Assembly (NCBI RefSeq): GCF_009649955.1
Contig: NZ_CP045875.1
Coordinates: 372,001-436,000, forward strand
Source: Heliorestis convoluta
GTDB lineage: Bacteria > Bacillota > Desulfitobacteriia > Heliobacteriales > Heliobacteriaceae
Reading direction: 5' to 3'
DNA length: 64,000 nt
Positions 300 to 64,000 of this stretch are shown here, piece by piece. The first letter of the stretch is position 1, and every line of letters starts with the position of its first letter. The notes under the pieces are model-generated. The model did not search any database, was not told the origin of the DNA, and saw only the letters and a program-made list of their open reading frames with translations. Both the position numbers and the translations under genes were made by a program.

Positions 300-921
300 A
301 AGATGCCTGAGTAACAGGGTGACAGTCTGCTAAGTAAACTCTATGGCTTAGGTTCGGTAGGCTTTCCCCACCCGGCTCCGACAAGTCACCTTATCGGCGG
401 TTTCCCTTTATGCCAGGCGCAGTCCTGTCACCAGGGCACTGAACCGAATCACCACTTAGTCCATACTTTAATCCCTAACAGACCTCTTGACAGAACAGTC
501 TAGGAATTTTCTTCAACAACTCTACCTGTCTCTAGCCTCTTTTGCAGTATTGGTTTCAAGTCGCGGCTCTTCCTCCCTGGCCGGGGAGAAAGCGCCGTAT
601 CCTCCTATCCGCCAATCCCACTCAAGGCAGGCTACACTGCACCCAGCATGAACCAAATGCAGGTTCTTCCCAAGCCATAGTTTCCTCCGAAAATGGTCCC
701 GGAGTTCCCCACGTATCTTGGGTCTCCACGGAGGTAGGGTCATCGCCCGCATGCCATTGCAGATCGCCCTATCCCCCTTAACTCCCAGTACCAACCCCCG
801 ACTGGGCGTCGGCAGCCAGCACCAGGAACTTCATCGATATGCCCTTGACGGATTTTTAGCCCCGCCTTCAAAACAGGAGATGCTGACTAGAATACTGCGT
901 CACCACATTCAGACATCTTGT
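300..921 (-). ncRNA. ole: OLE RNA (ornate, large, extremophilic RNA)
   Basis: About 620 bases with no plausible coding frame, rich in local and long-range pairing, transcribed towards oapA. Visible elements on the minus strand are a 5' hairpin CAGACA-AGA-TGTCTG just after the predicted start, a CCGAC/GTCGG hairpin, a CTCCG/CGGAG hairpin followed by GGAAAC, and an 8-bp stem capped by GUGA (378-397). A CTGTCACC near the 3' end pairs with an upstream GGTGACAG. Length and setting match OLE: it lies between ispA (with xseB and xseA) and an OapA-like membrane protein gene, the arrangement known from Bacillus halodurans and some Clostridia. OLE forms a membrane-associated ribonucleoprotein with OapA linked to stress and magnesium responses. 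The 5' end is taken from the promoter; the 3' end near 300 is approximate. No covariance search was run. Confidence 0.82.
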
Positions 922-2713: not shown

Positions 2714-4056
2714 CGCCGAGACTCCTTCCTTTTTTCCACTTTGCAAGTCAATTCACCTTTGCCTAAGGTAACATGAATCTGATCTCCCACCGAGACTTGC
2801 GTCGCTTCACGCAGGATTTGTTCTTTCTCATCAACGCAAAGGGCAAATCCTCGCTCCAAAACAGATAAAGGGCTCAAGGCATCGAGCATGGCGCCTTGTC
2901 GAGCTACTTCTTGGCGTCGTCTCTCTATCGCCTGGTTCGCCTGCTGTATCAACCGTTTGCGCAATTCTTCAATACGCTGGGTCATCCACTGAAAACGCTG
3001 CGTTTCTACCGTAGCAAGAAGGCGTTTCTCGAGATCGCTGACTTGTTTTTTCATCTGTTCGACTCGCGCCTTTTCAAAAGGTCGTAAAAGGCGTTCTTCG
3101 AGTTGATCAACTCGCTGTTGTTGAACACGCAGATTTTGCAGAGGATTGGCTAAAGCAGGTCTTTGCTCCAGATTGATAATAGCCTGGCGAGATTTTTCCA
3201 CTTTGCTATGAATAGCCCTTTGAAGCCTCATTTCCATTTCTTCTAGCTGTGCTTTGAGTCCATCATACCGGGGAACAGCCAGTTCAGCCGCGGCAGAAGG
3301 GGTAGCCGCTCGCACATCGGCGACAAAGTCACTTAATGACACGTCGGTCTCATGACCGACTGCTGAGATAATAGGAAGAGGAAAGTTGGCTATAGCGCGA
3401 CAAAGCTTTTCATCATTAAAAGCCCAAAGATCTTCTCGCGAGCCACCACCTCGACCGATGATAACAACATCAACCAAAGGATGGTCTCTTAAGGCTTCTA
3501 AGGCTTTTATCAGGCTTTTTGGTGCTTCCTCGCCTTGCACAATCGCTGGTGACAAGATTATATTCATGTTCGGATAGCGCCGAGTAATGACTGCGTAAAG
3601 ATCCCGAATGGCAGCACCTGTTGGCGCTGTTACAATTCCAACGGCGCGCGGTAGAAAAGGGAGAGGCTTTTTGCGCTCTGGTGCAAAAAGACCCTCTCCT
3701 TCTAAACGTTTGCGGACTTGTTCTAAGGCTAGATAAATACCTCCAAGTCCAGCAGGCTCCATCTCTTCGGCATAGAGTTGGTAGATACCATCGCGGGCAT
3801 AGACCGAGATGCGCCCTCGAAGAATTACTTTCAGACCGTTTTCAGGGCGAAACTTTAGAAAGCGAGCCCGTCCACGAAACATCACTGCTTTGAGGGTGCT
3901 TTCTCCATCTTTCAAGGTAAAGTACATATGTCCGGAGCTGTGGTGCTTAAAGTTCGATAGCTCTCCTTCAACCCAAAGATTGAGCAAGCTCTCTTCCTGG
4001 CTGAACAGTCCTTCGATGTATTCATTAAGCTCCGTGATGGACCATACTTTTCTCAT
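2692..4056 (-). CDS. xseA: Exodeoxyribonuclease VII large subunit
   Basis: Catalytic subunit of exonuclease VII, which cleaves single-stranded DNA from either end in repair and recombination. The 454 residues show an N-terminal OB-fold (about 1-105, beginning WSITELNEYI), the family signature GRGGGSREDLWAFNDE (201-216), SAVGHETD (231-238) and VADVRAATPSAAAEL. A long coiled-coil region (about 265-390) follows, then a C-terminal sheet that contacts XseB. Length is normal. It heads the xseA-xseB-ispA unit. The 104 bases up to nfnB hold no clear terminator, so read-through from nfnAB is possible. Confidence 0.95.
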   Translation of the reverse strand: MRKVWSITELNEYIEGLFSQEESLLNLWVEGELSNFKHHSSGHMYFTLKDGESTLKAVMFRGRARFLKFRPENGLKVILRGRISVYARDGIYQLYAEEMEPAGLGGIYLALEQVRKRLEGEGLFAPERKKPLPFLPRAVGIVTAPTGAAIRDLYAVITRRYPNMNIILSPAIVQGEEAPKSLIKALEALRDHPLVDVVIIGRGGGSREDLWAFNDEKLCRAIANFPLPIISAVGHETDVSLSDFVADVRAATPSAAAELAVPRYDGLKAQLEEMEMRLQRAIHSKVEKSRQAIINLEQRPALANPLQNLRVQQQRVDQLEERLLRPFEKARVEQMKKQVSDLEKRLLATVETQRFQWMTQRIEELRKRLIQQANQAIERRRQEVARQGAMLDALSPLSVLERGFALCVDEKEQILREATQVSVGDQIHVTLGKGELTCKVEKRKESRRWQIEKK

Positions 4057-4160
4057 CGAAAGCCTCCGTTCTTTTCTCTACAGAAAAATAGCTTCACGGA
4101 GAAAAATCTGCTTTCCCTGGCCCCATGTTCGGTAAAAAGGGCCCTTCGGCAGTTCAAGCT

Positions 4161-5576
4161 TTATTTGCTTTGCAAATATTGATCCATAGCGCGGGCTGCT
4201 TTTTTCCCTGCGCCCATCGCCAGAATAACTGTTGCAGCACCGGTAACAATATCACCACCGGCAAAAACGCCCTCTAGAGAAGTGCGTCCCTCTTCGTCTG
4301 CATAAATCGTTCCTTTGCGATTCAGCTCAAGTCCTGGTGTAGACTGCGTTACGAGAGGATTGGGACCTTGTCCAATCGCTACAATCACGGTGTCTACTTC
4401 CATAAAGAATTCTGATCCGTCAATAGCCACAGGTCGGCGGCGGCCTGATTCATCAGGCTCTCCCAGTTCATAGCGTAGACATCTCATTCCTTTGACCCAA
4501 CCTTGTTCATCACCTACGATTTCTACAGGATTGGTAAGGACTTTAAATTGCACACCTTCTTCGTGGGCATGTTCGATTTCTTCCGCTCGAGCTGGCATCT
4601 CTTTTTCCGATCGACGGTAGACAATCGATACTTCTTCGGCTCCAAGTCGAAGGGCCGTACGTGCTGCATCCATCGCCACATTACCAGCACCGAGGACAGC
4701 CACTTTACTGCCAGCACGAACAGGCGTGAGAGCGTTGGGAAAGTCGTAGCCTTTCATCAAGTTGGTTCTCGTTAAAAACTCATTGGCTGCAAAAACACCA
4801 CAAAAGTTTTCACCAGGAATCCCCATGAAATTAGGCAATCCAGCACCTGTGCCGATAAAGATAGCTTCGTATCCTTTTTGCTGCAGTTCTTCGACTGTAA
4901 AAGTCTTGCCACCTACCATATTCACTTGCACATTGACGCCAAGCTGGCAGAGGGTATTAATTTCTTTTTCTACAATTGCTTTGGGCAAGCGGAATTCTGG
5001 AATTCCATACATAAGAACGCCACCAGCAACATGTAGCGCTTCAAAGACTGTAACATCATAACCGAGGCGAGCCATATCGGCTGCGCAGGTTAAGCCAGCG
5101 GGACCCGCTCCAATGATAGCTACTTTTTTGCCTTTTGGACTGACTGTTGATGTCGCAGAGGTACACTTTTCTTTTGCCATCTGCCCTTCTTGGGCCATTT
5201 CCCAATCGGCAACAAATCGTTCTAGACGCCCGATGGCAACGGGCTCTGACTTAATGCCTATAATGCACTTGCTCTCACACTGGCTTTCTTGAGGACAGAC
5301 ACGACCACAGACAGCTGGTAAAGCATTTTTCTCTTTGAGCTGTGCTGCTGCTTCCGCAAAATTGCGTTCTGCAACAGCTTGAATAAATTCAGGGATCAGA
5401 ACTTCTACAGGGCAACCATCGCGGCATTTGGGCTTTTTACATTGCAGACATCGTTGTGCTTCTAAAACAGCTTGTTCTTCTGTATATCCAAGGGCTACTT
5501 CACGAAAATTTCTAATACGTTCTTCCGGCGCCTGGCAAGGCATTTCTTGCCGGTTGGGACGATCTTTTACTGACAC
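4161..5576 (-). CDS. nfnB: NfnB, large subunit of NADH-dependent ferredoxin:NADP oxidoreductase (GltD-like)
   Basis: Flavoprotein subunit of the electron-bifurcating transhydrogenase NfnAB, which couples NADPH oxidation to reduction of ferredoxin and NAD. Two N-terminal cysteine clusters (about residues 40-60 and 88-108) would bind [4Fe-4S] centres. AIIGAGPAGLTCA marks the FAD dinucleotide-binding fold, VAVLGAGNVAMDAAR the NADP fold, and a GGDIVTGAATVILAMGAGK stretch closes the family signature. GTG at 5576 is preferred to TTG at 5582, because the AGGAGG lies only 3 bases from the TTG but about 9 from the GTG. It overlaps nfnA by 10 bases. A stand-alone glutamate synthase small subunit is the alternative, but the NfnA partner argues against it. 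Confidence 0.88.
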   Translation of the reverse strand: MSVKDRPNRQEMPCQAPEERIRNFREVALGYTEEQAVLEAQRCLQCKKPKCRDGCPVEVLIPEFIQAVAERNFAEAAAQLKEKNALPAVCGRVCPQESQCESKCIIGIKSEPVAIGRLERFVADWEMAQEGQMAKEKCTSATSTVSPKGKKVAIIGAGPAGLTCAADMARLGYDVTVFEALHVAGGVLMYGIPEFRLPKAIVEKEINTLCQLGVNVQVNMVGGKTFTVEELQQKGYEAIFIGTGAGLPNFMGIPGENFCGVFAANEFLTRTNLMKGYDFPNALTPVRAGSKVAVLGAGNVAMDAARTALRLGAEEVSIVYRRSEKEMPARAEEIEHAHEEGVQFKVLTNPVEIVGDEQGWVKGMRCLRYELGEPDESGRRRPVAIDGSEFFMEVDTVIVAIGQGPNPLVTQSTPGLELNRKGTIYADEEGRTSLEGVFAGGDIVTGAATVILAMGAGKKAARAMDQYLQSK

Positions 5577-40929: not shown

Positions 40930-41381
40930 TAGATACCTTGTGGTGGGGGCAGGCGTTATGACTTCCTTCCGAACGGACTCATCCCACGCCATGAGCGGCA
41001 GCGAAGCTGCCGATGGCTGAGGTCTGAAGTCCTCTCTCCAGGAAGTCATAACGCCTGCCCCAGGTACATTTTGCTGGTTGTGACTGGCTTTGGGCCTATT
41101 GCATTGCAAATACAATAGGTAGTTGCGGATAGAAGAAAGTTTCGCCAAGCTATTCCAACGGAAGTAACAATCAGCAAAAACATTCTGGGCCAGGTCATCA
41201 CGCTTTCCGCAGCGGGACTTGGGACCTCAGCTGTCGCCAGCTTGCTGGCGGTAACAGCGTGGGACCAGTCCAGAGCGGAGGAAAGCGTGATGACTTGGTC
41301 CCTCTATGAAGTAACCCCAACGTAATCAGGAAAATTTATTTTCATCAGTGGTTGTGCCCAACCGGGCATGACTGGTTAGCA
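40930..41381 (+). repeat. Structured interspersed repeat, full copy B
   Basis: 452 bp, from TAGATACCTTGTGGTGGGG to GGTTAGCA. Module 1 is closed by a perfect 21-bp inverted repeat (40946-40966 with 41042-41062). The linker follows, then module 2 in inverted orientation, closed by a stem around GGAAAGCGTGATGAC, then a tail hairpin and GGTTGTGCCCAACCGGGCA. Relative to copy C the first stem has a T:A pair changed to G:C, so pairing is kept. It occupies most of the 745-base gap between the chemoreceptor and the thioredoxin-like gene. No coding capacity. Confidence 0.9.
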
Positions 41382-41389
41382 AAAAAGTA

Positions 41390-41493
41390 AGGGCAGGCGT
41401 TATTCATTCCTTCCAAAGGTCCTACCCACGCCATGAGCAGCAGCAAAGCTGAAGGCTGAAGTCCTCTTTTCAGGAATGCATAACATCTGCCCT
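41390..41493 (+). repeat. Solo module of the structured repeat
   Basis: About 104 bp similar to module 1 only: GGGCAGGCGTTATTCATTCC pairs with GGAATGCATAACATCTGCCC (one wobble, one mismatch). It lies 9 bases after copy B. It shows that a single module can exist alone, and it is diverged from its neighbour. Confidence 0.85.
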
Positions 41494-52250: not shown

Positions 52251-52460
52251 AATCCTACGCACTCCGTACGTTCTTTTTGTCTTTAGGATCGATAAAAAAA
52301 GGGACTTTCCACCCACCTATTGGATCCCTTCTTTTACTATACTTTATCTGTAGTTCTACTCTTATTGTAACGCTCCTGACAGTAGGACTCTATGGGACTA
52401 AGGTACTAGATCGATAGGTCTATTGACAAACAATTTGGCTTTTAAGCAGGCCTATCCGTA

Positions 52461-52507
52461 GCTTAGCTGGCGGTAACAGCGTGGGGCCGTCCAGGAGCGG
52501 AGGAAGC
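52461..52507 (+). repeat. Fragment of the structured repeat (module 2)
   Basis: GCTTAGCTGGCGGTAACAGC and GTGGGGCCGTCCAGGAGCGG, then AGGAAGC, match the right half of module 2 with small changes. It is next to the prepilin peptidase gene end. Confidence 0.7.
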
Positions 52508-56336: not shown

Positions 56337-56516
56337 GTTATTCACTCTTTCTTATCAGTTGCTTTATCCTTTAAACTTTGCTTTTCTTGCTTCTTCAATC
56401 TCTTCTATAACTTCTATAACTTCTTTCATCATATCCAATTACATATTAAGGTAAAAGTTCAACATAAAGCGACTGTTTCCTGCTTTTATCGCTGTTCTTT
56501 CTCGCAGCTTTTGTGC

Positions 56517-56561
56517 TTTTCATCAAGTGGTTGTGCCCGGCCGAGCATGAGGAGTTAGCAT
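56517..56561 (+). repeat. 3'-end fragment of the structured repeat, overlapping the aroE stop
   Basis: TTTTCATCAAGTGGTTGTGC, CCGGCCGAGCATGAGGAG and TTAGCAT align with the tail of copies B and C. On the minus strand this stretch encodes the last dozen residues and stop of aroE. Confidence 0.8.
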
Positions 56562-61372: not shown

Positions 61373-61826
61373 TAGCTACCCTGTGGTGGGGTCAGGCGTT
61401 ATGATTTCCTTCCGAAGGTCCTACCCACGCCATGAGCGGCAGCAAGCTGCGTGAAAGGCTGAGGTCTGAAGTCCTCTCTCCAGGAAGTCATAACGCCTGA
61501 CCCAGGTACATTTTGCTGGTTGTGACTGAGTTTTGGCCTATTGCATTGCAAATACAATAGGTAGTTGCGGATAGAAGAAAGTTTCGCCAAGCTATTCCAA
61601 CGGAAGTAACAATCAGCAAAAACCTTCTGGGTCAGGGCATCACGCTTTCCGCAGCGGGACTTGGGACCTCAGCTGTCGCCAGCTTGCTGGCGGTAACAGC
61701 GTGGGACCAGTCCAGAGCGGAGGAAAGCGTGATGACCTGGCCCCTCTATGAAGTAACCCCAACGTAATCAGGAAAAGCTGATTTTCATCGTTGGTTGTGC
61801 TCAGCCGGGCATAAAGGAGTTAGCAT
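61373..61826 (+). repeat. Structured interspersed repeat, full copy C
   Basis: 454 bp, from TAGCTACCCTGTGGTGGGG to GGAGTTAGCAT. Module 1 is closed by a 16-bp perfect inverted repeat (61389-61404 with 61488-61503). The linker has TTTTGCTGGTTG pairing with CAATCAGCAAAA and a TATTG/CAATA palindrome. Module 2 is closed by a 13-bp stem (61638-61650 with 61722-61734). The tail hairpin CCAACG/CGTTGG follows. It fills most of the 767-base gap between cwlJ and the acyl-CoA synthetase; the remaining 150 bases upstream of that gene show no clear promoter. Confidence 0.92.
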
Positions 61827-63860: not shown

Positions 63861-64000
63861 ATGCTACCTTGTGGTGGGGTCAGGCCTTATTCATTCCTTC
63901 CGAACGGACTCATCCCAGGCCATGAGCGGCAGCAAGCTGCCGATGGCTGAGGTCTGAAGTCCTCTCTCCAGGAAGTCATAACGCCTGCCCCAGGTACATC
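63861..64000 (+). repeat. Structured interspersed repeat, copy D (cut by window end)
   Basis: Begins ATGCTACCTTGTGGTGGGG and covers all of module 1 (right arm GGAAGTCATAACGCCTGCCC), ending in the first bases of the linker. The left arm reads GGCCTTATTCATTCC, so the stem is imperfect. Same orientation as copy C. Confidence 0.88.

Follow-up and report, generated by a model that had tools for sequence, protein, structure and literature searches.

The DNA analyzed here, a stretch of 64,000 nucleotides (the window) from the genome of Heliorestis convoluta, a photosynthetic bacterium (3,218,981 bp, one contig), contains several copies of a double hairpin of about 450 bp, which raises the question of what kind of element this is, how it has spread, and how its stems stay paired. 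A preliminary description of the window had listed three full copies, one cut copy and a solo module, all of which are present. It had also listed two fragments: the one at 52461 is indeed a piece of the element, the 3' half of module 2, whereas the one at 56517 proved to be a copy of the tail hairpin and not a module piece. The features are as follows, in window coordinates unless marked otherwise.

1033–1478, minus: full element between genes for a polyprenyl synthase and OLE RNA
40930–41381, plus: reference full element, 450 bp, head-to-head (BLAST against its own genome)
40946–41061, minus: module 1 of the reference copy (fold and RNA model match, genome 412962–413045, minus)
41062–41186, plus: central spacer of the reference copy (sequence and fold)
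41187–41301, plus: module 2 of the reference copy (RNA model match 413203–413285, plus; fold z = −7.9)
41302–41381, plus: right end, containing the small tail hairpin GTGCCCAACCGGGCAT (alignment of 44 copies)
41391–41493, minus: degenerate solo module 1 (75% match to module 1)
52460–52505, plus: 3' half of module 2, from the hairpin apex onward
56513–56556, plus: solo copy of the tail hairpin, with no module piece
61373–61825, plus: full element (module 2 core at 61645–61727)
63865–64000, plus: full element cut at the window end (whole element: genome 435865–436300)

Structure and copy number of the element

The 450-bp unit consists of two inverted hairpin modules of about 110–115 nt, spaced 155–176 bp apart. 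Module 1 of the reference copy has a 22-bp outer stem and a 70-nt core, whose sense strand is the minus strand. The two ends of the central spacer, TTTTGCTGGTTGTGACT and AGTAACAATCAGCAAAA, repeat the module 5' flank in inverted form, with a small hairpin between them, and the tail hairpin GTGCCCAACCGGGCAT is also found on its own, outside the 450-bp unit. For the whole unit, the fold z-score is −9.8 for the plus strand and −10.7 for the minus. No coding region was found in it, and an Rfam search of the unit returned no family at gathering score, only chance-level microRNA and snoRNA models with E up to 10. OLE RNA (Rfam RF01071), at window positions 303–919 (minus) and L102 positions 1822–2436, lies directly downstream of the first repeat copy.

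A BLAST search of the reference copy against its own genome returned 41 near-full or full copies (E < 1e-150), and a covariance model of the module matched 147 modules. Taken with the fold scores, these counts place the family far beyond chance, and they show that it is spread over the genome and not confined to the region of the window. Among the 132 modules listed, close neighbours number 49, of which 47 are paired head to head at a distance of 155–176 bp and two are arranged differently. Most apparent singles keep part of the spacer and are therefore truncated doublets; a few appear to be true singles with arms of their own (e.g., 1000315, 1009514 and 2217430). By simple ORF calls, each of the 82 clusters falls between ORFs, whether the neighbours are convergent, divergent or tandem, and single modules show no orientation bias relative to genes. 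The inverted palindrome doublets, intergenic positions and high copy number support the REP/BIME-like layout that the preliminary description had recognized.

Recombination between copies

Flanks were analyzed over 377 kb around the copies. In six copy pairs, one flank is common over 65–335 bp at 100% identity, and the adjoining part of the element is shared as well; the two copies diverge (about 8% of the element) only in or beyond the near module. The identity of one flank and the near half in these pairs indicates that copies recombine. The right flank of the element at 61373 has a duplicate at genome 1244740–1244943, where it adjoins another copy. At 883405, the element is followed by a 5' piece, and no more, of a gene that adjoins the copy at 2727796. 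An exact 769-bp tandem, made up of 319 bp of flank and the 450-bp element, occupies 3134784–3136321, and its flank is found again, identical, at 3122524. Such flank-sharing patterns are the expected trace of ectopic recombination, gene conversion or break-induced copying between copies. Because no part of the element is better conserved than the modules, the exchange points are no proof that hairpins provoke breaks; their location in modules could simply follow from homology.

An identical stretch of about 335 bp beside repeat copies, at 923358–923692 and 1774480–1774814, seems to form the 3' end of two genes; a protein C-terminus may therefore have been altered by recombination at the repeats.

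Stem pairing is maintained while stem sequence drifts

Each module has a conserved core of about 70 nt, with the pattern GGRCTTnnnGACCTCAGC-hairpin-GCGTGGGAnnnGYCC, in which the stems are broken by conserved internal loops; the core sits on a long outer stem. The outer arms vary by locus, yet each pairs with its own partner. The change reported earlier in the module 1 stem, T:A in the copy at 61373 as against G:C in the copy at 40930, was seen, and conserved pairing by compensatory change is strongly supported across the family. Both sides have changed in 16 of 28 pairs, and 96% of cells are paired. In an alignment fitted to the model, the covariation score was 0.404, compared with 0.154 ± 0.009 for shuffled alignments and at most 0.085 with slid partners; an alignment of 12 sequences made with MAFFT agreed. 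In Heliorestis acidaminivorans, arms are 57–60% identical (shuffled arms 42–43%) and cores 86%. Own-arm pairing there averages −28 kcal/mol, over eleven entries, two of them off-target matches to the pattern (−7 and −10), versus −14 with arms from other loci and −12 with shuffled arms. These results show that pairing is maintained during drift of the stem sequence.

In the core, fixed U.G pairs alternate with C-G and U-A pairs. Departures in the arms comprise 28 G.U and 23 A.C distinct events, in a strand test whose power is low because the tRNA acceptor-stem control gave only 9 versus 4. The covariation data and the G.U/A.C counts do not tell RNA from DNA as the selected form.

Mutation itself might keep the stems paired, by template switching in the hairpin (quasipalindrome correction) combined with gene conversion between copies. 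Such a process is consistent with near-perfect arms in rapidly drifting stems, with the lack of a G.U excess and with the homogeneity of module types within a genome. It fits less well with the unpaired internal loops, which are conserved across genera and which arm correction alone would erase, or with the coordinated changes in the short inner stems. We consider this process quite unlikely. It concerns the upkeep of stem pairing and can operate in a REPIN-like repeat family of the kind favoured below.

Occurrence in other heliobacteria

The module model matched four of nine Heliobacteriaceae genomes and none of 74 genomes from other families of the class. A scan of an 84,980-species collection (the window's own record left out) with the core pattern returned three relatives and, at the pattern used, no further species: Heliorestis acidaminivorans DSM 24790, Heliobacterium chlorum DSM 3682 and Heliobacterium mobile DSM 6151. 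Viral contigs gave no match to the repeat. On these searches, the repeat family is specific to Heliobacteriaceae.

H. acidaminivorans carries at least 13 modules, all single; these 13 are intergenic, in all gene arrangements, with no orientation bias. Most copies of H. chlorum and H. mobile are in the sense orientation about 30 nt beyond the 3' end of a 23S rRNA gene, followed in some cases by tRNA genes, and given this position the Heliobacterium module is presumably transcribed in pre-rRNA. Other 23S trailers of the same two genomes are without a module. Two further copies (L090 and L098) have similar trailer-like flanks. An rRNA origin of the core was considered and rejected, as the rRNA regions read, part of them masked as N, gave no real match.

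Several side observations concern the rRNA loci of these bacteria. In other heliobacteria, the same 23S 3' trailer contains unrelated hairpin repeats, as many as three in succession (loci L122, L113 (relative G004), L114 and L137 (H. acidaminivorans)). The H. convoluta genome has been reported with nine rRNA genes in all (PMC7143216), against 11 matches to the 23S 3' end; 23S 3'-end fragments (Rfam positions up to 2912) lie away from full rRNA genes, at about 1450900, 1459400, 2322700 and 2323300, and most precede tRNA genes. At 781576–782074 (L196, positions 3777–4275), two 5S genes with tRNA genes between them stand upstream of 23S and not after it. In the relatives, 5S matches are far fewer than 23S 3' ends.

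Sites common to the two Heliorestis species

Comparison of 13 H. acidaminivorans sites with 82 H. convoluta sites identified three orthologous sites, with gene names read from translations and not from a family search.

897439: interval between an aldolase-type gene and a glpX-type gene
Polyprenyl synthase–OLE RNA interval: window copy 1033–1478, a single module in H. acidaminivorans
991793: third orthologous site

The order polyprenyl synthase, module, OLE RNA is the same in both species. At a fourth H. acidaminivorans site, the two neighbour genes adjoin two different H. convoluta elements, including the window copy at 61373, which points to a rearrangement with elements at both breakpoints. 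The expected number of coincidences is about 0.4 (13 and 82 sites, assuming 2,500 intergenic regions), and four shared sites are unlikely to have arisen by chance (about 1e-3, Poisson, by hand) unless insertion-site preference is strong. At the shared sites, each species has its own typical core, suggestive of concerted evolution. Other sites, such as rpmE–prfA, are not common to both species. An apparent shared site at L091 was dropped; the H. convoluta element there lies on the opposite side of the gene.

The placement of modules bears on the main alternative explanation, in which the module is a structured RNA motif, such as a processing hairpin for RNase III or a binding protein, that originated in pre-rRNA, was copied into many transcription units, and is selected as RNA on the sense strand. 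The sense copies behind Heliobacterium 23S rRNA, presumably part of pre-rRNA, would be its original setting, and occupation of the same intergenic place in two species, where the remaining spacer is unalignable, would be a sign of function; covariation combined with conserved loop nucleotides and the fixed core U.G pairs point the same way. However, modules show no gene-orientation bias, and head-to-head doublets make one of the two modules antisense. The near equality of G.U and A.C in the arms, weak as that test is, likewise gives the RNA strand no preference. Several Heliobacterium operons lack the module, and a single event probably gave rise to the rRNA copies. On this balance we regard a structured RNA as an unlikely account of the family.

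Search for a mobilising enzyme

Movement by a REP-associated tyrosine transposase (RAYT), as suggested in the preliminary description, was not borne out. The sole Y1 transposase gene of H. convoluta is an IS605 TnpA, accompanied by TnpB; no module was found at the ends of H. convoluta IS605, and no RAYT was found in the genome. H. acidaminivorans has three longer Y1 proteins; no module adjoins any of them, and two are next to ordinary REP-type repeats instead. With no module beside any Y1 gene seen in either Heliorestis species, the link to a RAYT was rejected. The two Heliobacterium carriers yielded no Y1 protein, the H. convoluta genome gave no RVT_1 match to a reverse transcriptase, and no mobilising enzyme for the repeat was identified.

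A separate REP-like repeat, GGGGACGTTTCGTTTGGCA, lies beside several elements, e.g., upstream of 219357, 972116 and 1244566. It is present although H. convoluta is without a RAYT, and similar repeats flank a RAYT-like gene of H. acidaminivorans.

No target-site duplication was detected: the longest common flank word was 6.7 for a copy's own flanks and 6.1 between copies, and 3.8 versus 4.2 for the outside parts. An insertion sequence with target duplication was rejected on this result. A clean empty site was not found either; at rpmE–prfA, the single empty site examined, H. acidaminivorans has no element, but the spacers cannot be aligned. With neither a mobilising enzyme nor a target-site duplication or clean empty site, it is from copy number that we infer mobility. 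Three half modules start at the hairpin apex, and CTTGCTGG microhomology with the spacer accounts for two of them; cleavage at the apex was rejected on this ground.

High copy number, intergenic positions and near-identical recent copies would also be expected of a MITE derived from an ordinary insertion sequence, extant or lost. The repeat nevertheless has no terminal inverted repeats with target-site duplication, the loci read contain no longer, transposase-bearing copy, IS605 ends lack the module, and in other genera modules persist singly with altered arms. A MITE origin is accordingly very unlikely.

Proposed origin of the family

We conclude that the elements are probably dispersed non-coding, non-autonomous palindromic repeats, specific to Heliobacteriaceae and REPIN-like without a RAYT. 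Of the earlier interpretation, the REP/BIME-like layout and the compensatory changes are retained, and the RAYT link is not. The ancestral unit would have been a single hairpin, a state kept in the intergenic regions of H. acidaminivorans and in Heliobacterium 23S rRNA trailers. In H. convoluta, two units may have fused head to head to give the 450-bp doublet, which would then have reached about 50 copies, with outer-stem sequence drifting and pairing retained. The hairpin, as folded single-stranded DNA or as a transcript, may be the target of a host or mobile protein. A trans-acting enzyme would have spread it at first, and present spread and homogenisation may proceed mostly by ectopic gene conversion or break-induced copying between copies.

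This REPIN-like reading builds on what was directly observed: the structure and number of the copies, their covariation and recombination, the taxonomic limit of the family and some orthologous sites in two species. The shared sites and the conservation of the core across genera would also fit a selected function. The module could be a functional heliobacterial signal, read as RNA or folded DNA and bound by a protein, that acts in pre-rRNA maturation, spreads semi-selfishly and has its locus-specific stem pairing under selection; we judge this version unlikely.

The family is apparently undescribed; the H. convoluta genome paper (PMC7143216) was found to contain no passage about repeats of this kind. 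It forms a natural series, from single modules in rRNA trailers through single intergenic modules to amplified doublets, and this series makes the spread and persistence of RAYT-less palindromic repeats testable.

Comparison with known systems

REPINs have been reported as inverted doublets and as tandem arrays that include flanks (PMC3116915). The heliobacterial family resembles REPINs and BIMEs in its inverted palindrome doublets with a spacer, its intergenic location, its high copy number and its flank-including tandem arrays (PMC3116915). It differs in module size, about 115 nt as against 20–40 nt for REP palindromes (PMC3733652), as the preliminary description had observed, and in that H. 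convoluta has no RAYT and no module lies beside any Y1 gene seen. The structured module is unusually large, and its stems covary between loci.

The ERIC/IRU (RU-1), RU-2 and RU-3 repeats of enterobacteria are likewise small and intergenic, mobile and MITE-like, at 103–168 bp (PMC2759123, PMC2229807). They differ from the heliobacterial family in sequence and host group, and the latter has doublets, locus-specific arms and 23S-trailer copies. With the structured RNAs of Rfam, the module has covarying stems and conserved loops in common; the difference is that no family matches it at gathering score. Intervening sequences in bacterial 23S rRNA are hairpin inserts in rRNA transcripts. The heliobacterial module, by comparison, lies in the 3' trailer and not inside the 23S gene, and is also dispersed.
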